A DNA stretch of 45,026 nt, from IMG/VR virus record IMGVR_UViG_3300025759_000171, positions 1 to 45,026 of that record; one strand, 5' to 3'. How positions within the stretch are numbered: position 1 is the first letter of the stretch; each line of letters begins with the position of its first letter. Made by a program: the position numbers and the translations under genes. The stretch is from a virus. Positions 1,726 to 37,454 of this stretch are shown here, piece by piece. The notes below the pieces were generated by a model. That model saw only the letters and a program-made list of their open reading frames with translations. It had not been told where the DNA came from and did not search any database.

Positions 1726-4700
1726 TTGACAACTCAAATTGATAGACTGAGAACCGACGCAATTATTGCGATTCATCGAGGTGTTGACTTCAACTTCGAT
1801 CCGTTCTTAAAATCAATTGAAAACGCAGATCTGGTTAAGGAAGACATGGCAACTCTTCTCGCTATGGGTATGCAAAAGCCAGAGTTCCGAATGAATGACT
1901 TATCATCGGCAATGCCTGTTTCAATGATGAAAATCCCAGAATATGCTGATTTCACCGCAGGTCATACAAAAATGACCAACGACCCTGTACGAGATTGGAT
2001 GTCGGCAGCAGTTGACAACCGCTACGGAGAGCATCACCCCTTTGGAGTCAAATCAAACAGTTGTCCTCTGCTTCATGGATCCGTCCACGGAGATCCTGCT
2101 TATGCAGACCATATTGCTTATGCGATGCCAAACTTGCAGACTATCGCAGAAAAAGAACGTGTTCTCGACTACGACAAAATGTTCTATGGAGATCCAAAGG
2201 AAACGATGTACGATCTCCACAAAAGAGATAGGAATCGATACTCTCATGTTAGCGATGAGGATTATGAACAAGGCAAAATCAATGAATGGAAAACCGAATT
2301 AGGCTTTGCTCCTTTTTTGTTTGGGCTTGAATACAATACTCACGAACAACGAAAAGCGTTTTTTGATTTGTTGGAAGCCATGAACGGAACGGAACCAGGA
2401 TCTCCCGATTTCCGTTATTTCCAAAACAAAATGCAAGAAAAGGCAGGTTTGTCTTGGGGTCGAGCATTGAGGAATTGGAGGGAACGATTTACGCCTCTCC
2501 TTGGTTGGTGGCTCCGCCCAAGTGATCGGCACGGACCTGTAAGCCCTCTTGGTCTTGGACAGGGCATGATGGCAAAGGCAAACAACGCCGATGAACATAT
2601 CATGAGTCCGTGGGTTCATGAAAATGGCAGTATTCAAGAATCAACAAACCACCATTGGTGGGAACTGTTCATGCCATGGGGTGGAGTTGGTCGAAACGTG
2701 GAATCCCTGCGCCAAATGTTTGAGCAATCGTATCCAAAGTGGTTCGGATCTGGATGGCTATCGGATATGCTGATAAATCAAAACGCATCCGCTTTCATGC
2801 AATACGATCATGATGGGGGAAGCCATTTCCCTGTTGCTGTAAATCATCCAGCAACTGATTATCATCCTTCTCGATCAGCAATCAAGTCATCGTTGGGCGA
2901 TAGCGAATTCTTTGAACAACGCAGAGCAAATTGGAGCCATGGTTCAAACCTTCACTTTTTGCATCCAAGTGAGATCAAAGGCCAAGGTGGTCGAATGATT
3001 GTTCCAAGCGATAATCTCATGTTGAGTCGATTAGGGCTTTCTTTGGCAGGTCAAGCCGATATGGGTTCTCCTCGAATTGGGATGTTTAGGGAAGATCACC
3101 CCTCCTCTTCAAAAGAATACTGGGACGCTCACAATGCACTTTATGCAGCGAATGATATGCATTTGGGGCAAGCGATGTCCAATATGGCTATGCGTGTCAT
3201 GAAACAATTTGGCTCAGGGGCAATCAATCCTACTGATCCTCAAAATGCTGAACAGTCCTTGATCGCAAGAGGAAACCTTCAACAAATTGCAAGTGCTGCT
3301 GACTTTGCATTGAAGAAAATGGCAATGGGCGAAACATACCGTGCTTTGGCACCTGGTTATGATGAAATGGGCAATATGAACATGACTGTCAAACCTTTGG
3401 GTCCAGTCCATCCAATGTCTCACGCAACATCTCCTCCCGTGTATAATACGGGGAATACTCACCTTTGGGGGCATGAGATGCCAACAAATTTGACATGGAA
3501 GTATGATCCAAAGCAAGAAGGAATTGTATTTGGAATGACGGATGAACCATTCCAGATCATGCAAAGAACTGCTCATGAAAAACACGTGGACGCCGTGCTT
3601 CCAGGGTTGATCGACCTCCCCGTAGGTGCAAAACAAAAAGACATTCAAGCATTGAGTTCGCTCGATAGCCGTGGCCTATCTCCTTTGGCGACAGGAGATA
3701 TTCACAAATCCGAAGATTACAAGGCAACTGGGGTTTTCAAAACCAAGATAATCCCTGCTTACACCATTCATAACCTTGATGAGATGGAAAAGTTGCGAGG
3801 CTTTACAGGAGATTGGGTTGTTCAAAAAATGCCCAAAGGCGAACGGATGTTTATTGAAAAGAAAGGCAATCACATCAAAGGAGGAAAGTTGCCATCCGAT
3901 GTTAGGAAGAACCTTCGTGAGATCACAGGAGACTTCACTTTCGATGCTTACCTTGATGATGGTGTGCTTCATGTTGTTGATCTGCTCGTTCACAAAGGTA
4001 CAGATATGCACATGGAACCTTTGGAAGATCGCGTGAATGCATTGAGGACTCTTTACGATTCAACTCCTCAAGTGCATTTTCCAATGCCCACCAATTGTGT
4101 ATCCACCGATCAAGAGGGACTGTTGAAAACAGTCAATGCTTTGGATAAAGAGGAATTGCTTATTCGAGACTCAAAGTCCACATTCATGAAGGAAAAAGAG
4201 GTTCATCCCAAATGGATCCGATATGCGAAAGAGGACATCGCCAAGGCGTTTTATCCTCCAATGCCCGAAGTTATGGTTTATCCTAATCGAGTAAAGTTGG
4301 CGTATCCATCCATCATTGAACCAGTTGTATTCAAAGGATCATATGATCAAGGTACTTTCAACATCGATTCAATTGAAGGCAATGATGCATTGTTTGCAAA
4401 GGCAGAAAGAGATTCACCTATTTGGGGGCCTGTTGCAATTTCTCTGTTCAAAACAGCGGTTGCATCATCTGGGGGCGCATTTACTTCAAGTAGCGCAGGT
4501 ACTCACAACCCTCTTCATTCTTCGAGGAAACGAAAACCAAAGAAATTGAAGATTGCAAAAACTGCTTTACTCCGTGCGCCAGCAATTGAAGGCGTAGGAG
4601 AAGAAGGAGACAATGTTGCGAGTACGATGAAACAGGTTCGTTCTGCAATCACAAGCGATAACAAGGCCAAGACGACTAAAAAATTGTTGAGCATGGTCGA

Positions 4701-5136
4701 GGGATTAAACAAAAAAATGCTTGAGATGTTCGCAGGAGAGTATGGCATTGAGCGAACAGAAGATGGCGACAAATGGACAGTCAATGAGGCAATTGATGAT
4801 GACATCATTGAAAGGATGTTCCCTCGCATGAACCGTATTTCACCAGATGGGGGTGCTTGGTCGGGTATGCAAGCAGACATAACTGCGCCAACTGGTCCTA
4901 CAAAGTTGATTGATGAAAGTGCCACCACCTTTTACGATCCTAAAGAACAGGAAGAACCAATCGAAACAGATCCAATTTATCATCTCAAAGTAAAGGATGG
5001 AGAAGATCAATCCACCACGTTGGATGTGGCTGATGGGGAGGCCACACTTCGAGTTCCAAGAAAAACACAAAAGGAAATGGAAAATGAGCAAGAAGTGGAG
5101 CCGAGTGATCGTTCCGAGGCAGATGACTCGTACTGA
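1726..5136 (+). CDS. Large structural-region protein with a degenerate DNA-ligase-like domain
   Basis: 1136 residues starting at TTG 1726 after a G-rich binding site (1713-1718). Residues 1-680 are rich in His, Trp, Asn and Gly and match no family I recognise. Residues about 685-835 follow the order of ATP-dependent ligase/nucleotidyltransferase motifs. D696-W697...G705-E-R707 corresponds to motif I, with Met702 where the adenylated Lys should be. F739-D740-A-Y742 corresponds to motif III, followed by a V-V-D-L-L strand and a P-L-E-D-R helix. E809-E-L-L-I-R814 corresponds to motif IV with Arg for Lys, and W830-I-R832 to the last motif. The C-terminal 220 residues are charged and partly coiled. 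It lies directly upstream of the capsid protease, so a head or portal-vertex role is plausible. The ligase likeness is my motif reading, not a database result. Confidence 0.7.
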   Translation: MTTQIDRLRTDAIIAIHRGVDFNFDPFLKSIENADLVKEDMATLLAMGMQKPEFRMNDLSSAMPVSMMKIPEYADFTAGHTKMTNDPVRDWMSAAVDNRYGEHHPFGVKSNSCPLLHGSVHGDPAYADHIAYAMPNLQTIAEKERVLDYDKMFYGDPKETMYDLHKRDRNRYSHVSDEDYEQGKINEWKTELGFAPFLFGLEYNTHEQRKAFFDLLEAMNGTEPGSPDFRYFQNKMQEKAGLSWGRALRNWRERFTPLLGWWLRPSDRHGPVSPLGLGQGMMAKANNADEHIMSPWVHENGSIQESTNHHWWELFMPWGGVGRNVESLRQMFEQSYPKWFGSGWLSDMLINQNASAFMQYDHDGGSHFPVAVNHPATDYHPSRSAIKSSLGDSEFFEQRRANWSHGSNLHFLHPSEIKGQGGRMIVPSDNLMLSRLGLSLAGQADMGSPRIGMFREDHPSSSKEYWDAHNALYAANDMHLGQAMSNMAMRVMKQFGSGAINPTDPQNAEQSLIARGNLQQIASAADFALKKMAMGETYRALAPGYDEMGNMNMTVKPLGPVHPMSHATSPPVYNTGNTHLWGHEMPTNLTWKYDPKQEGIVFGMTDEPFQIMQRTAHEKHVDAVLPGLIDLPVGAKQKDIQALSSLDSRGLSPLATGDIHKSEDYKATGVFKTKIIPAYTIHNLDEMEKLRGFTGDWVVQKMPKGERMFIEKKGNHIKGGKLPSDVRKNLREITGDFTFDAYLDDGVLHVVDLLVHKGTDMHMEPLEDRVNALRTLYDSTPQVHFPMPTNCVSTDQEGLLKTVNALDKEELLIRDSKSTFMKEKEVHPKWIRYAKEDIAKAFYPPMPEVMVYPNRVKLAYPSIIEPVVFKGSYDQGTFNIDSIEGNDALFAKAERDSPIWGPVAISLFKTAVASSGGAFTSSSAGTHNPLHSSRKRKPKKLKIAKTALLRAPAIEGVGEEGDNVASTMKQVRSAITSDNKAKTTKKLLSMVEGLNKKMLEMFAGEYGIERTEDGDKWTVNEAIDDDIIERMFPRMNRISPDGGAWSGMQADITAPTGPTKLIDESATTFYDPKEQEEPIETDPIYHLKVKDGEDQSTTLDVADGEATLRVPRKTQKEMENEQEVEPSDRSEADDSY

Positions 5137-5170: not shown

Positions 5171-5194
5171 GATTGCTTGATTTAGGAAAGGTTG

Positions 5195-6592
5195 ATGACG
5201 GCAGCAAACCTCTCAGTCTCCTCCGCAACATGGTCTGCGGATGGCTCTGATTTCTTGCTAAAATCCGCTGCATCAAATGGCGACTTATTCGTTGCAGGTT
5301 ATGCCTCAGTCGATATGGTCGATAAGCAGGGAGATCGAATCCCTGTACCTGCTCTTAAGAAAGCCTTTGACCAATTTATGGGGAACAAGGCATTCCGCAA
5401 TGTGCAATTGGCACACTCTGGTATTCAAGTTGGAGAAGTTGTCTCCGACTACAAGGATACCGAAGGACGATTGTGGAAATCCGAAGTTGATGATCACGGA
5501 TTGTTCGTTGTTTGCAAAATCCGCAACGACATCCAAAAAGCACGTGAAGTGCAAAAGCAAATCCGCAATGGAGAACTACGGGCGTTCTCGATTGGCGGTC
5601 AGGCACTATTCCGTGTCTCCAAAACCACACCCGAACTCGGTACTCATCGAGAGATTACCGACCTTGAACTCCATGAGATCACACTCTGCAAGAAAGGAAT
5701 CAATCCTGAAGCAGCGTACACGATCCTCAAAATGGATGGAGATGAAAACATGAGCAACACAGAAGTGCTAAACGAAATTAAAGCAGGTCTTTCCGAAGTC
5801 CTGAAAGAATTGAATGAAGGAAAGTCCGACAAGAAGACTGACGAGAAATACATGAAGGGCGACATGAAAAACGTCGAATGCGATGAAGATGGCAACCCCA
5901 TCGGATCCAAGGGCGACGACAAAATGAAGAAGGGCGAGCAAGATCTCGCTCTTGCTTACATCGACACCCTTGAGAAATTCGCTCACGAATCTGGTGTTGA
6001 TCTCGACGGCCTCCGTGATCACTTCGGTTTGGAAAAGGCATACCTCCCTGAACAAGGGTCTGGTGGCTTCTCTCACCGTGGTCAAGGCGACGAAGTTGGA
6101 TCTGGCGAAGATGCAACCGAACCTTCGTACCCCTCTCTCCCAAGTCCTGGCGGCAACCAATATGTCATCAAGGGTCCAAGTGTCCCACACATGAACATGA
6201 ATGCTCCACAAGGCAACACCAACGTGATCAAGTCCCTTACCCCAGAAACTTTGGAGAAGGGATACCGAACCTACGCTGCCCTCCGTGATGAAGAGGCAGT
6301 AAAGGGACTCGTTGAGAAAGAATGGGCAGAACGCTATGATGCAGAAACCGCTCAGGCTCTCGAAGTTCGCAAAGCCAACGATGTCGGCGTACAAATCAAC
6401 GCTCTCCGTGAGGAAATCGCAATGCTCAAGTCCGAGAATGTCGATCTCCAAAAGAGCGCAACCCCTGTGCCATCCGAACCAACAACCTCCATCCGAGTAC
6501 CAACACACGATGAATTTTCCCAGATGGGATCTGATCTCGAAGGTTGGCGAGCCGCAGAAGCACTTGCTATGCGAGCATTGCGAGGAGAATGA
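5195..6592 (+). CDS. Prohead serine protease with fused scaffold-like C-terminus
   Basis: 465 residues from ATG 5195, with GGAAAGG (5184-5190) upstream; a TTG one codon earlier is less likely. Residues 28-180 match HK97-type prohead proteases (U35/XkdF-like). His74 lies in LAHSGIQVGEV, Ser132 in GELRAFSIGG, and the third motif DLELHEITL (residues 156-164) precedes the typical G-I-N-P-E-A-A. The enzyme would cleave scaffold and capsid during head maturation inside the procapsid. Residues about 180-465 are charged and end in a coiled coil (about 395-425), as expected for a scaffold domain fused to the protease; no separate scaffold gene is seen. The major capsid gene follows after 24 bases, the classic order. 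Confidence 0.88.
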   Translation: MTAANLSVSSATWSADGSDFLLKSAASNGDLFVAGYASVDMVDKQGDRIPVPALKKAFDQFMGNKAFRNVQLAHSGIQVGEVVSDYKDTEGRLWKSEVDDHGLFVVCKIRNDIQKAREVQKQIRNGELRAFSIGGQALFRVSKTTPELGTHREITDLELHEITLCKKGINPEAAYTILKMDGDENMSNTEVLNEIKAGLSEVLKELNEGKSDKKTDEKYMKGDMKNVECDEDGNPIGSKGDDKMKKGEQDLALAYIDTLEKFAHESGVDLDGLRDHFGLEKAYLPEQGSGGFSHRGQGDEVGSGEDATEPSYPSLPSPGGNQYVIKGPSVPHMNMNAPQGNTNVIKSLTPETLEKGYRTYAALRDEEAVKGLVEKEWAERYDAETAQALEVRKANDVGVQINALREEIAMLKSENVDLQKSATPVPSEPTTSIRVPTHDEFSQMGSDLEGWRAAEALAMRALRGE

Positions 6593-6616: not shown

Positions 6617-7771
6617 ATGACGCAAGGATACATCCGAACAATCGAAGACATGGAACGCCTTTACTACGGTGCTGGCGCAGGATCAAATGCATGGGCATAC
6701 AGCGGAACCGATCTGCTCAAAGCCGATTCACCATTGATGTCCACCACGACTGGAACCTACAACGCCATCTTTGGGCGTAAGGTTTGGTCGCAACTCAACC
6801 AAGAATTCAACGCCTTCTCGATCCTTCCTAAGAAGCCTTGGGAAAAGAGTGGATGGCGTGTCGTGGTTGGCAAGCCTGATGAAGCAAGCGGCCTTCCTGA
6901 AAACGGAACCCTTCCTGACTCCACCAAGCCAACTTTCCACGAAGTCAGCACCAAGCCAAAGACCATTGCAAGCAAGTTCGACCTGAGCGAAACTGCAATG
7001 TTCCTTGCAGACAAGGACGATGGACTTGGCGATGCACGTGCTGTGATCAAGATGGAAATGTCGAAATCTCACGCTGAGTCGATCAACAAGATGCTCCTTC
7101 GAGATGTCAACACCGTCGCTGGAAACAACTTTGAATCCATTGACCGTGCAATCTCCTCCTCCTTCGTTGAGAAGTCTGGAATGGACGACATCAGTTCAGC
7201 AGCAGTTCACAACCAATACAGTCTCACCCGAGACTCCTCTGGTGCTACTGCCCGTGAATGGTACGACGCCAACGTCGATGCTGGTGCAAACGGTGCTTCC
7301 AACGAACGCCCTCTCACTTTGAACATCCTCGATGGAATGTTCCGAAGCGTTTGGGAACGTGGTGGTCAGCCAAAGGTCATCCTAACTGGCTACGATACCG
7401 TTGAGAAGATCCAACAACTCCTCCAACCACAACAGCGATTTACCGAGATGAAGCGTGTTTCACCTTCCGTCAACGGTGTCCAAGGTGTTCCTGGTATGGA
7501 TGCTGGATTCGTTGTTGCAACCTACAACGGAGTCCCGATCATTCCTTCCAAGGACGTTGTTGATGATGGTCTTTCCCGACTATACTTCATCGACACCGAC
7601 TACACCTACTTCTGCACGGCCAAACCAACTCTTTACCACGAATCTGGTATCGAGACTGGCGATCCATTCGGTATCAACCGTCTTGGACAAGTCGGCCTAT
7701 TCCACACAATGGGTGAACTCTGGCAACTCTTCTATGGCGCACACGGCAAGATCCGAGATCTTAGTGCCTGA
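6617..7771 (+). CDS. Major capsid protein (HK97-fold)
   Basis: 384 residues, preceded by AAGGAGATGA (6601-6610). Position immediately after the protease, length, and the pattern of a long N-terminal helix/E-loop region followed by P- and A-domain-like segments (a central region with PKVILTGYDTVEKIQQLL, then VATYNGVPIIPSKDV and a C-terminal YHESGIETGDPFG) fit HK97-type capsid proteins. It forms the icosahedral shell. Codon use is distinctly biased: 13 of 14 Tyr codons are TAC, and Asn, Thr and Ala codons mostly end in C, unlike the tail genes, as expected for the most highly expressed gene. No long cleavable N-terminal delta domain is obvious, consistent with the scaffold being on the protease. 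Confidence 0.88.
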   Translation: MTQGYIRTIEDMERLYYGAGAGSNAWAYSGTDLLKADSPLMSTTTGTYNAIFGRKVWSQLNQEFNAFSILPKKPWEKSGWRVVVGKPDEASGLPENGTLPDSTKPTFHEVSTKPKTIASKFDLSETAMFLADKDDGLGDARAVIKMEMSKSHAESINKMLLRDVNTVAGNNFESIDRAISSSFVEKSGMDDISSAAVHNQYSLTRDSSGATAREWYDANVDAGANGASNERPLTLNILDGMFRSVWERGGQPKVILTGYDTVEKIQQLLQPQQRFTEMKRVSPSVNGVQGVPGMDAGFVVATYNGVPIIPSKDVVDDGLSRLYFIDTDYTYFCTAKPTLYHESGIETGDPFGINRLGQVGLFHTMGELWQLFYGAHGKIRDLSA

Positions 7772-33198: not shown

Positions 33199-33822
33199 AT
33201 GGCAAAATGTTCATGCAAACCTGGAATTGAGAGAGATAGTTGCTCAAAATGTGAAGGAACAGGTCAAGTCAAGAATTTTTTGGGCAATCACATTTGCCCT
33301 AAATGCGGTAAGCGGGGCGACGGAATGCGATTTAGGCATGAGAAACATGGTTGTGATGATAACCGCATTGACACCGATAGGAACTTGATGATGAATCAAA
33401 AACAGTTTGAACGCTGGCAAGATAAAAACGCAAGTGAACCAATGAAGATTTTTGATATTGCATGGGATCTGATGAAAAGCGACAGTCAAGGGTGCGATGT
33501 TTGCGGTGAAACAGATGGTGTTTTCACCTACATGGATAACAACAAAAGAGCGCACATGGTTTGTTCCGATGCTTGCATGGATAAGAACAAAGGCAAGGGA
33601 AGAGGAACAACGCCCGTTTTAGGCGGAGGAAGAATGGTGAAATCCGATGAGAAGGGCGACAACGCCCCAACCAACCCTGGTCTTTGGTCGCAAGCCAAAT
33701 CGAAGGCTCGATCCAAGTTCAAGGTGTACCCTTCGGCCTACGCCAATGGTTGGGCTGCTAAATGGTACAAGTCCAAAGGCGGCGGCTGGAAGAAAAAGTC
33801 CAAAGGAGGAAAAAAGAAATGA
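33199..33822 (+). CDS. Multi-zinc-finger basic protein with internal AWDLMK-type peptide
   Basis: 207 residues, GGAGG at 33186-33190. Residues 4-40 have a DnaJ-like cysteine pattern (C4-x-C6, C15-x2-C18, then C33-x2-C36 around a G-x-G turn). Residues 82-94 (MKIFDIAWDLMKS) match the N-terminal peptide of three nearby genes, and an internal ATG at 33442 begins exactly there. Next comes CDVCGETDG...CSDAC (about 98-125), a treble-clef-like zinc site. The C-terminus (LWSQAKSKARSKFKVYPSAY followed by a Trp/Lys/Gly-rich tail) resembles a module repeated in many phage and giant-virus proteins of unknown role. Probably nucleic-acid-binding, possibly virion cargo. Confidence 0.72.
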   Translation: MAKCSCKPGIERDSCSKCEGTGQVKNFLGNHICPKCGKRGDGMRFRHEKHGCDDNRIDTDRNLMMNQKQFERWQDKNASEPMKIFDIAWDLMKSDSQGCDVCGETDGVFTYMDNNKRAHMVCSDACMDKNKGKGRGTTPVLGGGRMVKSDEKGDNAPTNPGLWSQAKSKARSKFKVYPSAYANGWAAKWYKSKGGGWKKKSKGGKKK

Positions 33823-34028
33823 CTAACGAAGCACTTGAGAAAGCATGGGACTTGATGAAAGAACGATACACAGGATGGGATGGCAACCGAACACGTGAGA
33901 GGCGTGGCAAATGCTCCGAATGCGGTGCAAAACAGACTTGGGATCCATGTGGTCTTTCGGTACATAGCCCAAGACACTCTGATCATGTCTATGCGTTTGA
34001 ATGCCCCAAGTTCCAATACACGGAATGA
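33819..34028 (+). CDS. Small zinc-finger protein with N-terminal AWDLMK peptide
   Basis: 69 residues. The start ATG 33819 overlaps the previous stop as ATGA and follows GGAGG (33805-33809); a longer frame from 33762 would lie inside the upstream gene and lacks a site. It begins MTNEALEKAWDLMKER, the shared peptide. Then come C-x2-C (GKCSECG), a further Cys in WDPCG, a His/Ser-rich turn and FECPKF: four cysteines suited to one zinc. Function unknown; the position and the tag suggest it accompanies the other small Cys-rich proteins in the particle or in an early-infection role. Confidence 0.68.
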   Translation: MTNEALEKAWDLMKERYTGWDGNRTRERRGKCSECGAKQTWDPCGLSVHSPRHSDHVYAFECPKFQYTE

Positions 34029-34034
34029 TTTACG

Positions 34035-34655
34035 ATGATTGACGCCCCCATCTCGGATCTTATCGAAAAAGACTTGAGGCGTTGGTTCAAAGAAAAATGG
34101 GTTGACGTTTCTCGCAAGGATAAGGATGGCAAGCATCCTCCTTGTGGACGTGGCGAAGCAAAGACGGATAGCAAGGGCTATCCAAAATGTCGCCCTTCAA
34201 AGAAGGTTTCTTCCAAAACCCCTAAAACAACGAGAGGTATGAGCCAATCGGATAAGAAAGCGGCTACGCGCCGTAAGCGATCCAAACCCCAAGGAGTAGG
34301 AGGAAAACCAACCATGGTCAAAGCGTTTAGATGTGATTGCGAGAGTTGCGATTTGCTGTCGAAGGCAATGATCTCAAAGGCTAAGAAAAAATCCAAGCCA
34401 TTCCATGGCTACAACCCAAACCGACACAGCAGAAAGGGCGGTTTGAATGCCAAGGGTCGAGCCAAGTTCAAGCGTGAGCAGGGATCCAATCTCAAGCCTC
34501 CCGTGTCGCAGAAACCCTCAACGCTCAAACCAGGTTCAAAGAAAGCAAAACGTCGAAAGTCGTTCTGCGCTCGAATGGGCGGAGTCAAAGGTCCAACCAG
34601 TAAAGGTGGAAAATTGACACCAAAGGGTGCGGCATTGAAACGGTGGAATTGTTGA
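34035..34655 (+). CDS. Highly basic Lys/Arg-rich protein with phage-conserved motifs
   Basis: 206 residues, very basic. Block one (about 13-90) reads LRRWFKEKWVDVSRKDKDGK, then C37, Y-P-K-C52, and a Lys/Arg run with MSQSDKKAATRRKRSK. Block two (about 136-206) reads GLNAKGRAKFKREQGSNLKP and ends KRRKSFCARMGGVKGPTSKG ... ALKRWNC. Blocks of both kinds recur in many marine phage and giant-virus proteins of unknown function (recalled; no accession claimed). A cysteine cluster, CDCESC (100-105), lies between. The charge suggests binding of packaged DNA or RNA. No good binding site precedes ATG 34035, but a six-base gap after the previous stop supports coupling. Confidence 0.7.
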   Translation: MIDAPISDLIEKDLRRWFKEKWVDVSRKDKDGKHPPCGRGEAKTDSKGYPKCRPSKKVSSKTPKTTRGMSQSDKKAATRRKRSKPQGVGGKPTMVKAFRCDCESCDLLSKAMISKAKKKSKPFHGYNPNRHSRKGGLNAKGRAKFKREQGSNLKPPVSQKPSTLKPGSKKAKRRKSFCARMGGVKGPTSKGGKLTPKGAALKRWNC

Positions 34656-34665
34656 GTGATTTTTA

Positions 34666-35811
34666 ATGGCAAACACAAACATTGCAGAAGGTCATGAAAA
34701 GACCGCATCGTCCACATACCAAAATGATGGTCTTCGAGATACCGATGTCCTCGCCAGCCCTTCGTTGACCAACTTCGTTGAAAACGGATTGGGGAACGGA
34801 ATCATACCGATCACGCTAAACCGTTATGACGAAAGCAACAGAAACAATCCAATAAGTGGAAATGGTTGTGTTCGCCCCAACGGATCTTTGGGGGCTACAT
34901 CGGAATTGTATGTTGATGTTGGCGTTGCCCAACTCGATGGAATGTTTTACTCAATCGGCCATGCCTCAGTATTGGACATCGCCGCTGGAACCAATTATCA
35001 TTCATCATATCATGGGGCAGCGATTCCCAATGGATCGAATCCTGGCGACGAGGCAATTCTGCTGGTTTATGTTGAACCACGACTCCCTAACAACATTGGA
35101 TTTGTGTACGGGTCTTATGTGGATACTGCTACTGGATTGTATCCCAGTTCCCCAAGTGCAGAGTTGGTGAGGCAAAATACGATACTTGCTTCTGTTCGAG
35201 TTGGAAAAGGCGCAAGCGGCCCAGTCATTCATGCAATCGAAGACAAGAGGTCATTCATTAGACCAGGGCCAGTCCCTTTGTCAGCCATGGAGCATAGCAA
35301 TGGAGATAAATCTGGAATGAGAAATGACTTCGTTGCTGGAATCAATGCGGCAAATTTGCCCATCACCAATTTGGGTATGGTCTATGCCCGTGATCCTACT
35401 GGCCTCTTTCCGACTGTTCAAGGGCAAGGTCAAACGCACTTATTTTTCCAATCCGATCAGGGACTTGGATCTCATGCAGGGGGCGGTGGAGAATATCAAA
35501 TCACCCCTGTTCACAGAACGTCAAAAACCCCCCTCATTCCATATGTAGGGCCATTGAACCTTCCTTTTGGAACTGCCGCTCCTGGTGGCATTTTATTCAA
35601 ACCCCTCCTTAGCGAAGAGGACGGGGCAACTCATCTCACCACGGTTGATTGCTTCGGTGCTGGTGGTGAATCATTGGGGTCTTTGGCTGAAGTCATGCAC
35701 TACAACCTCAACGCAACTCATTTGATTTTGCCCGATCCAGCCTCGTTGCCTCCACCCTTAGATCAAACACAATTTGCGGTCATCACCTATGTCCACGCTT
35801 CTCATGCATGA
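34666..35811 (+). CDS. Tail fibre or baseplate protein
   Basis: 381 residues. Gly/Pro/Asn-rich strands with no recognised domain. N-terminal half: NGCVRPNGSLGATSELYVDV then L-D-G-M-F-Y-S, a pattern typical of baseplate/tail-fibre proteins that pass through an extended 'generic structural' region. The middle has VEPRLPNNIGFVYGSYVDT, a likely strand pair, and an EDKRSFIRPG segment often seen in tail proteins. It sits inside a run of small Cys/Lys-rich genes, away from the main tail-tip block. Structural role likely, exact part unknown. Confidence 0.62.
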   Translation: MANTNIAEGHEKTASSTYQNDGLRDTDVLASPSLTNFVENGLGNGIIPITLNRYDESNRNNPISGNGCVRPNGSLGATSELYVDVGVAQLDGMFYSIGHASVLDIAAGTNYHSSYHGAAIPNGSNPGDEAILLVYVEPRLPNNIGFVYGSYVDTATGLYPSSPSAELVRQNTILASVRVGKGASGPVIHAIEDKRSFIRPGPVPLSAMEHSNGDKSGMRNDFVAGINAANLPITNLGMVYARDPTGLFPTVQGQGQTHLFFQSDQGLGSHAGGGGEYQITPVHRTSKTPLIPYVGPLNLPFGTAAPGGILFKPLLSEEDGATHLTTVDCFGAGGESLGSLAEVMHYNLNATHLILPDPASLPPPLDQTQFAVITYVHASHA

Positions 35812-35822
35812 AGGTGATTGAA

Positions 35823-36029
35823 ATGGCAAGGGCATACCGAGACAAGGTTAGCCAAACGTGCGAAAAATGCAACGCAGATGTTCTTGCTATACGCATAAAC
35901 GGTTTCTATGCGGGAAGTCGAGACAGAATGTTCTTGTGGGAATGCCCTGTGTGTGAACACATATGGAAGAAGCCCGTGCCGCTGATTCAACCTATCCCTT
36001 CGATCAATGGGGGTTTGTTGAATGACTGA
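35823..36029 (+). CDS. Small zinc-ribbon protein
   Basis: 68 residues from ATG 35823, five bases after AGGTGA (35812-35817); ATG 35808 upstream is in frame but overlaps the previous stop and has no site. It is a zinc ribbon: C-x2-C in SQTCEKCNAD and C-x2-C in WECPVCEHIW, separated by a basic strand (AIRINGFYAGSRDRMFL). This looks like TFIIS/RPB9-style or transposase-style zinc ribbons, too short for a confident family. It is followed with an 8-base overlap by the basic protein at 36022. Could bind nucleic acid or a protein partner. Confidence 0.7.
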   Translation: MARAYRDKVSQTCEKCNADVLAIRINGFYAGSRDRMFLWECPVCEHIWKKPVPLIQPIPSINGGLLND

Positions 36030-36267
36030 GGCATTTGAAGCCGCATGGGATTCCATCGCCAAAGGTCGCTTTCGAGGCTACACCCAATCAAACATCGGTG
36101 ATCGACCGATGAGGCAAGGGAAAGCAAAGGCTTGGAGTCAAAGTCGAAAGGTCAAGCGTGGCCGTACTGCAAGACGGTACAGAAGAAACAAATCCAGAGG
36201 AACTGTCCGACCTGCCATGCGTAGGCAATTAGGCGCAGGTGGCAAAAGAGCCTCAACAAAGAGATGA
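36022..36267 (+). CDS. Small Arg/Lys-rich protein with N-terminal AWDS peptide
   Basis: 81 residues, overlapping the upstream stop by 8 bases, with a G-run (36009-36013) as binding site. It begins MTEAFEAAWDSIAKGRFRGY, the shared peptide type. The rest is strongly basic: QSRKVKRGRTARRYRRNKSR and RRQLGAGGKRASTKR, with hardly any acidic residue after position 30, so nucleic acid binding is likely. It resembles small DNA-condensing proteins only in charge. It directly precedes the methyltransferase, which carries a similar N-terminal peptide. Confidence 0.68.
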   Translation: MTEAFEAAWDSIAKGRFRGYTQSNIGDRPMRQGKAKAWSQSRKVKRGRTARRYRRNKSRGTVRPAMRRQLGAGGKRASTKR

Positions 36268-36272
36268 TTGAC

Positions 36273-37454
36273 ATGAGCAATGAGATCTTTGAGGAAGTCT
36301 TTGAGGCACTTCTCAAGGCAGCAGATCGGCTTAATTTTGCTGAACTCTTTGCAGGTTTGGGTGGCTCTCCCCTGATCGAGTTTTTGGGTGAAGGAGGATG
36401 GGGAGGAGCAGCAAAGAAACGAGGACACAATGTCCAAGCATATGAACTGGATCCATCATTGAAGCAAGGAGATCCAAATTATCACATTCGAGATGTCATG
36501 GACATGGATGCAGAGGAGATCATGGATGACTTCGATTGGGAAGGCATCGACGCTGGTGTCGCTTCCTTTCCCTGCAAAGCATTCACTACTGCATCAGGAA
36601 ACAAAGGATGGATTTGGGATAAAAGGTGGATGGATCAGTATTCCGATTTGACAGGAAAGGATTGGGATGACACAAAATCAACTGGTTGGCATTGGGATCG
36701 GGTCAAACCCTACTACAACAAGAACAGGGGGCAAGGATCTCAATTGGGCTTCTCAGGAAACGTTGCAGCATCAAGTCCAGATGCGTATGAGCGTGATGAG
36801 TTGGGGCGTTATTTGGATATGCAAGGCAAACCAATGATGACTCGAAGAGGAGGCAAACCTGTGCCGATGGGCGACGAACAGATTCAATCAGCCATTGATC
36901 GACGCAATTTGGGAATGGACTTGATGGGTCAATCTCGCAAGTTGTTTGAAGACTTGAAGGCTTTGAATCCTGATATGTACCAAGTGTTTGAGAATCCTGC
37001 GACAGGCAGGGCAAGGTATCTCAACGAGTTGTCCGACCTCCCAATGAAGACCATCGATGCGGCAGCGTATCGAGATCCAGCACATTCTTCCCTCTTCGGT
37101 TTGCCTCAAAATCAAAACCTGTTTGAGATGACGCCAGGTTCTTTACCTGCTTTGAAACCGACAGATCTGTTTGGGTATTTCCCTGAAACCTTTGTTCCAC
37201 GACCACGATTGCCTCGAAGTCTCGCAGGTAAGTTCTATGAAAAGGCTCCACGTGGATCGAAGTCAGGGATCCAAGGCGTAGGAGATTTACCAGCAAATTC
37301 CCTCTTCCCTGGAAGCCCAACCATTGACAAATTCCACTTGCGATCAGTCATACCCTACTGGCTTGGTCATGACTTTGTTCAATCAGTTGAACAGGCGCAG
37401 GGGATCAATCCTCAGTCGCCAGTCATATCGGACGTTCGATTGCCAATGGCTTGA
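36273..37454 (+). CDS. Phage-type cytosine-C5 DNA methyltransferase-like protein (virion side)
   Basis: 393 residues from ATG 36273, chosen because the protein then starts MSNEIFEEVFEALLKAADRL, like its neighbours; ATG 36264 is the alternative. Motif I FAELFAGLGG (22-31, SAM binding), an acidic strand end YELD (57-60), motif IV F-P-C101-K-A-F-T-T-A-S with the catalytic cysteine, motif VI F-E240-N-P, and a YRDPAHSSLFGLPQNQNLFE segment (266-285) near motif VIII, then KPTDLFG (295-301). This order matches phage 'ENP/KPTD' type methylases rather than classical Dcm. A Trp/Asp-rich stretch (113-160) is inserted after motif IV. It would methylate cytosine in DNA. It lies with late virion genes and converges on the early operon, overlapping the 37412 gene by 43 bases. 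Confidence 0.75.
   Translation: MSNEIFEEVFEALLKAADRLNFAELFAGLGGSPLIEFLGEGGWGGAAKKRGHNVQAYELDPSLKQGDPNYHIRDVMDMDAEEIMDDFDWEGIDAGVASFPCKAFTTASGNKGWIWDKRWMDQYSDLTGKDWDDTKSTGWHWDRVKPYYNKNRGQGSQLGFSGNVAASSPDAYERDELGRYLDMQGKPMMTRRGGKPVPMGDEQIQSAIDRRNLGMDLMGQSRKLFEDLKALNPDMYQVFENPATGRARYLNELSDLPMKTIDAAAYRDPAHSSLFGLPQNQNLFEMTPGSLPALKPTDLFGYFPETFVPRPRLPRSLAGKFYEKAPRGSKSGIQGVGDLPANSLFPGSPTIDKFHLRSVIPYWLGHDFVQSVEQAQGINPQSPVISDVRLPMA

Follow-up and report, generated by a model that had tools for sequence, protein, structure and literature searches.

In bacteriophage T4, the internal proteins are diverse and only their capsid targeting sequence (CTS) is conserved (PMC3012670). Ten residues of the CTS suffice, residues 4 and 7 targeting and residues 8 and 10 affecting processing, while the Alt protein is cut at both ends and gp21 acts on sites such as LIE (PMC9026906). 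Here we describe a peptide with the 12-residue consensus M-T-A-F-D-x-A-W-x-[LIV]-[LV]-K, henceforth the tag, which heads unrelated proteins in a 45 kb linear virus record of IMG/VR (IMGVR_UViG_3300025759_000171; 45,026 nucleotides, henceforth the window) and in its relatives. Because the tag is common to unrelated proteins and ends in an apparent head-protease cut site, we consider it probable that it is an address label into the virus head, that is, a capsid-targeting leader predicted to be cleaved after its lysine and to carry cargo into the head for injection.

The tag and the T4 CTS (borne by IPI, IPII, IPIII and Alt, and served by gp21 of class S77) share a plan: a short N-terminal leader on unrelated proteins (internal ones in T4), with a targeting part and a protease-site end that are both putative for the tag, the layout here being F4 and A7-W8 first and ΦΦK (Φ, hydrophobic) at positions 10-12. 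By this analogy, binding to the core would fall to F, A and W and cleavage to ΦΦK. The T4 cargo contains an ADP-ribosyltransferase and the putative cargo here contains ADP-ribosyltransferase-like (ART-like) proteins, and as Alt is cut at both termini, so C-terminal tag copies exist here. Unlike the CTS, the tag shows no evident sequence similarity to it, ends in Lys rather than at a Glu site such as LIE and goes with an S78-type rather than an S77 protease; the virus is archaeal with an HK97/SU10-like capsid, and up to 15 genes per contig are tagged, against four proteins in T4. We found the short terminal peptide (up to about 20 residues) common to unrelated proteins that marks a T4-type CTS, and S78 with Lys in place of its S77 (gp21-like) protease with a Glu-ending site. 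We propose that the leader works like a CTS but, since sequence, site and protease class differ, do not file it as a T4-type member.

Other systems resemble the tag less closely. Head and ejection proteins of the giant phage SPN3US also lose N-terminal propeptides, there to gp245, and a targeting role was proposed (PMC7411985), but several of these propeptides are long (111-130 residues) and their motif resembles that of T4 gp21. DarA and Hdf of P1 are co-injected anti-restriction proteins, and the N-terminus of DarA is cut by the head protease (PMC12810830), but its propeptide is long as well (about 75-90 residues) and the accessible text describes no short leader across unrelated P1 proteins. 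Polyvalent proteins of phages are enzymes of the cargo type whose injection is predicted, T4 Alt serving as prototype of the host-modifying ones; unlike the proteins here, they are large and multidomain, and processing by a metallopeptidase was proposed (PMC5512222). A term search of the accessible text of the magrovirus survey PMC10160649 returned no leader, motif or N-terminal feature, and neither an archaeal capsid-targeting sequence nor an earlier description of the tag was found in the searched literature, whose coverage leaves out most subscription journals.

Our data set comprised 274 loci (3.7 Mb, almost all viral; 4,190 genes from simple greedy open reading frame calls), namely relatives of the window virus and viral loci picked up through their tags or through a shared domain; the helicase of the window is common to 36 viral loci. 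The motif [FLIMYV]xxAWxx[LIVMF]K occurs 439 times in these genes, at frequencies that are not unbiased because part of the loci were fetched for carrying the tag or the shared domain. Since shuffled residues gave a mean of 4.2 occurrences (maximum 8), swapping A and W gave 1 and reversal gave 3, the shared peptide is not a product of chance, and the similarity that a first-pass annotation of the window had pointed out is real. Of the copies, 299 are no more than 10 residues away from the called start and nine are at the extreme C-terminus, and relatives have internal copies too. When we demanded only the anchor [FLIMYV]xxAW near Met, leaving K free, 419 proteins were recovered, and it is from these that the consensus is drawn. 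Their bodies fall into 180 clusters in the fetched loci. Residue 4 is F in about 124 of the 180 clusters, and the final position holds K at a frequency of 89% and R at 1%; in several exceptions K comes one residue later.

The tag is a feature of viruses. A start-anchored DNA pattern matched at least 118 stretches of IMG/VR virus contigs, many with several matches, whereas 84,980 cellular genomes (257 Gb) gave 21 matches, mostly in ordinary proteins, where chance alone would give about 15 (2 x 257 Gb / (4^16 x 8)). Among the cellular genomes there is a single clear viral match, on a terminase- and portal-bearing contig of a Poseidoniales single-cell genome. Had ordinary cytoplasmic proteins matched equally often, a packaging signal would have been hard to maintain; their chance level favours it. 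The same numbers bear on another idea, namely that a host factor such as RNA polymerase, the ribosome or the proteasome is bound by the tag, so that tagged effectors, once expressed in the cell, act on it. Some bodies are indeed effector-like (ART-like, methyltransferase, NUDIX), but a motif that is not above chance in cellular genomes speaks against this idea, as does the tagging of basic DUF5872/DUF6321 proteins, and the switch from K to E with protease class described below would be left unexplained; we hold it to be very unlikely.

In the relatives G006 and G001, runs of tagged genes lie upstream of the terminase, portal, protease and major capsid protein (MCP) genes and on the same strand. 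Over the fetched loci as a whole, runs of up to a dozen consecutive tagged genes are frequent. Only four copies are visible in the window because it lacks the stretch ahead of the terminase gene in which the largest tagged arrays of its relatives are located. Among seven contigs examined, N-terminal AW tags numbered 0-15 per contig, and HVTV-1 and vir519, whose MCPs are related, have no N-terminal AW tag. A comparison of strands, where possible, placed 61 tagged genes on the structural strand and 12 on the opposite one, so that confinement to the late strand is not strict. An untagged HMG-CoA lyase-like gene (EVGPRDGLQN, by eye) also occurs within the tagged arrays of two relatives (L124:2202-3068 and L118:894-1763).

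The tagged genes form mosaic arrays in which stops and starts overlap, as one would expect if the leader were a recombination or translation-start cassette, acting in DNA or RNA for gene swapping, and the peptide had no role. Yet codons vary at all tag positions but Trp (13 codons at the first Leu/Ile/Val position; AAA 75 and AAG 37 for Lys), and C-termini and internal domain junctions carry the tag as well. Because codons vary freely except at Trp, selection acts on the peptide; the cassette is largely ruled out by this variation, and we give it hardly any weight.

We compared the end of the tag with junctions in head and possible scaffold proteins of the window (a slash marks a putative cut):
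487-828, + strand: coiled-coil protein with the site GSGDLFLK/SR (745-768)
5192-6592, + strand: S78-type prohead protease (head maturation protease phrog_23555, E=8e-22; relatives match PF04586)
5243-5263, + strand: putative N-terminal site GSDFLLK/S of this protease
6617-7771, + strand: MCP (SU10_MCP; phrog_24667, E=7e-51), SU10/HK97-like
6686-6721, + strand: site peptide closing the putative 35-residue propeptide of the MCP, which ends SGTDLLK/ADS

ΦΦK stands ahead of the S78 domain in 24/24 distinct homologues, while the rest of the N-terminus diverges (GSDFLLK/S, DFRILK/S and EPITILK/G, for example). At 60% identity the MCP junction still reads SGSELLK/ADS, and K35 and A36 are nearly invariant, HVTV-1 (37% identity) included. 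A PDB sequence search with the MCP returned one capsid protein only, 6j3q (E=0.0017), and an AlphaFold model from eight close sequences had a mean pLDDT of 28.5 and said nothing on the propeptide. The coiled-coil protein is a possible scaffold. The ends of the tag resemble the protease and MCP junctions (AWDLMK/SD, AWDLMK/AD): at the level of sequence, ΦΦK is common to the tag end and the putative sites in the virus's own head protease and MCP, and the residue before DUF5872 switches from K to E with the protease class. SGTDLLKADS and FDTAWDLLKADS are candidate substrates of the S78 protease, predicted to be cut after Lys. Beside the protease gene, positions 1726-5136 encode a 1,136-residue protein with a stretch that, by eye, is like the core of an ATP-dependent DNA ligase.

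The dependence on protease class is visible at DUF5872. The residue before its [DN]LxRWFKEKW motif is K in 38/38 cases in S78-type loci, where S78 was confirmed directly on part of the contigs (including the tagged set of at least 80 kb) and the remaining loci were assigned by kinship, and E in 8/8 cases (VLKE, VLQE, IIKE) in contigs with a T4-type S77 protease and gp23. Magrovirus-type contigs tested had S78, and S77 was not found in the subset checked for it. Judged from these residues, leader chemistry follows the prohead protease class, K going with S78 and E with S77. Moreover, an S78 protease was present in 18/18 of the tested tagged contigs that measure 80 kb or more. We conclude that the peptide is shared, virus-specific and linked to S78 viruses. 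The ΦΦK junctions of protease and MCP, the shift with protease class and the constant presence of S78 favour head delivery over other signals, in support of the first-pass annotation, which had suggested a targeting or packaging signal such as one for capsid delivery; packaging itself is what these signs would predict.

Alternatively, the tag could address proteins to another viral or host site (membrane, replication compartment or tail tube), in which case the final Lys would simply belong to an amphipathic helix. One helix face could hold F, A/W and LL, and the model of the ART-like protein has a short helix at residues 3-11 with the domain directly after it. However, K is nearly invariant and not exchanged for R, the spacing from W to K shifts by one residue, the same ΦΦK occurs at the protease and MCP junctions, and leader chemistry tracks protease class, all of which make this alternative unlikely.

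The tagged genes of the window and their neighbour are as follows:
33199-33822, + strand: fused protein of three cargo-like segments (Zn-binding, Zn-binding, DUF5872), with the putative protease sites WDLMK/SDSQ and RMVK/SDEKGDNAP between them
33442-33477, + strand: internal tag copy MKIFDIAWDLMK, residues 82-93 of this protein
33631-33669, + strand: its second junction, RMVK/SDEKGDNAP
33819-34028, + strand: small Zn-type protein, tagged, leader MTNEALEKAWDLMK (33819-33860)
34035-34655, + strand: basic DUF5872-DUF6321 protein (DUF6321 E=1.9e-17, DUF5872 E=3.4e-11)
36022-36267, + strand: basic peptide, tagged, leader MTEAFEAAWDSIAK (36022-36063), a variant in which one more residue stands ahead of K
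36273-37454, + strand: DNA methyltransferase, tagged (phrog_363, E=2.4e-06), loose leader MSNEIFEEVFEALLK (36273-36317)

All four copies of the peptide that had been noted earlier are present (33442, 33819, 36022 and 36273). The peptide reads MTNEALEKAWDLMKER at 33819, and a gene of the relative G001 that is 91% identical has the leader MTHEALEKAWELMK. It reads MTEAFEAAWDSIAKG at 36022 and MSNEIFEEVFEALLKAA at 36273, where the open reading frame has another in-frame ATG at 36264. We accept these two looser copies because homologues carry clearer tags: MTEAFDQAWDSIVK-GRF in a near relative of the 36022 protein, and the canonical MVFNTAWALMK-ADELNVVETYAG and MPFEIAWGIVK-QDKLDVFEGYAG in distant homologues of the methyltransferase. 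The 33199 protein appears to be a natural fusion whose segments are divided by the two putative protease sites. Its last segment is a separate tagged gene in relatives (MTETFEMAWELMK/SDEKGDNAP), and K precedes SDEKGDN in every S78-type copy listed, although the sequence upstream varies. The fusion thus fits the protease link, since the DUF5872 piece is a separate, K-preceded tagged gene in relatives. The leader of the 34035 protein, MIDAPISDLIEK (34035-34070), ends in K and is followed by DLRRWFKEKW.

The bodies behind the tag include ART-like proteins, DNA methyltransferases, NUDIX, ParB-like and Zn proteins, DUF5872 and DUF6321, which are unrelated to one another. A Pfam scan of 110 tagged proteins matched 17 families, most bodies having no match. 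The largest tagged cluster is the ART-like YHGT family, whose alignment shows HGT to be invariant. Among the best structural matches to its model, KptA/Tpt1 and ADP-ribosylating toxins predominate, though these matches are weak (best E 6e-3, low TM-scores), and the tagged ART-like protein found no match among phage records. In several virus groups DUF5872 and DUF6321 bear group-specific leaders. The function of these two Pfam families is not known, and we regard them as probable basic head proteins carried in the particle.

Leaders of other sequence occur in other groups. In a separate S78 group (G023 and G024; L316-L325) the leader M[SNTK]WxxILK is found on 16/143 and 18/146 genes (0.2 in shuffles), and in T4-type loci a MKIIITE-type leader is found on 25/438 genes (1.2 in shuffles). 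The form MK[IFL][IL][IL]TE[SDN] heads unrelated genes in T4-type contigs and look-alikes (G041-G043, G045, G047-G050, L093, L096 and L104), where it is probably the capsid targeting sequence. No cross-over was seen in the sets tested, each leader being missing from the other groups. We lean slightly towards the view that lineage-specific capsid address codes are general in tailed viruses, each S78 or S77 group having its own protease-matched short leader that marks the injected arsenal.

A 106 kb contig from the Poseidoniales single cell AG-422-I20 encodes a protease at 68% identity, together with terminase-like and portal-like genes and a gene that bears the tag. Because this contig carries related head genes and the tag, we link this virus type to a Poseidoniales host; with both related head genes and a host link, the window belongs to the magrovirus-type viruses of Poseidoniales. 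AGCT is absent from the window (about 113 expected), seven relatives (about 1,915), the G023/G024 group (about 559) and a third group (about 511; counts from the window and loci L118-L152, L316-L325 and L058-L213). The single-cell viral contig has 0 of 87, against 226 of 254 expected in other contigs of the same cell. CCGG and CTAG are likewise missing from the window. The absence of AGCT amounts to extreme site avoidance, perhaps in response to a widespread AGCT-cutting defence.

Several observations weigh against a cleaved leader for head delivery. G018 is without the strict tag and has a GW variant only, and the 12 tagged genes off the structural strand are on the helicase-side strand, all in loci adjoining the helicase. 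The residue following K is variable (A 20%, E 12%, N 10%), the K-ending leader of the 34035 protein lacks the AW part, and DUF5872 is leaderless in some S78 viruses (G053-G055). The comparison of K with E concerns a single residue before DUF5872 and could partly reflect lineage drift. We looked for virion proteomics of these uncultured viruses and found none, and cleavage at Lys is a prediction. If the tag does direct proteins into the head, its F-x-x-A-W helix would bind a component of the prohead core during head assembly, pulling the fused protein inside. The S78-type prohead protease would then cut after ΦΦK, at a site like those where it probably also processes itself and the MCP. Once freed, the proteins would share the head with the DNA and pass with it into the Poseidoniales cell, where the ART-like proteins, methyltransferases, NUDIX and Zn or basic DNA-binding proteins would act on host or virus DNA.

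Were address codes of this kind general, the injected proteins of uncultured viruses could be read straight from sequence. If our reading of the tag is right, one short motif picks out, from the many unknown genes in a major group of viruses of abundant ocean archaea, those whose products are loaded into the particle and delivered at infection. It would also supply candidates for host takeover or anti-defence, in about 180 families. The capsid-targeting principle of T4 would likewise reach archaeal viruses whose head protease is of an unrelated class, leader and protease having changed together.

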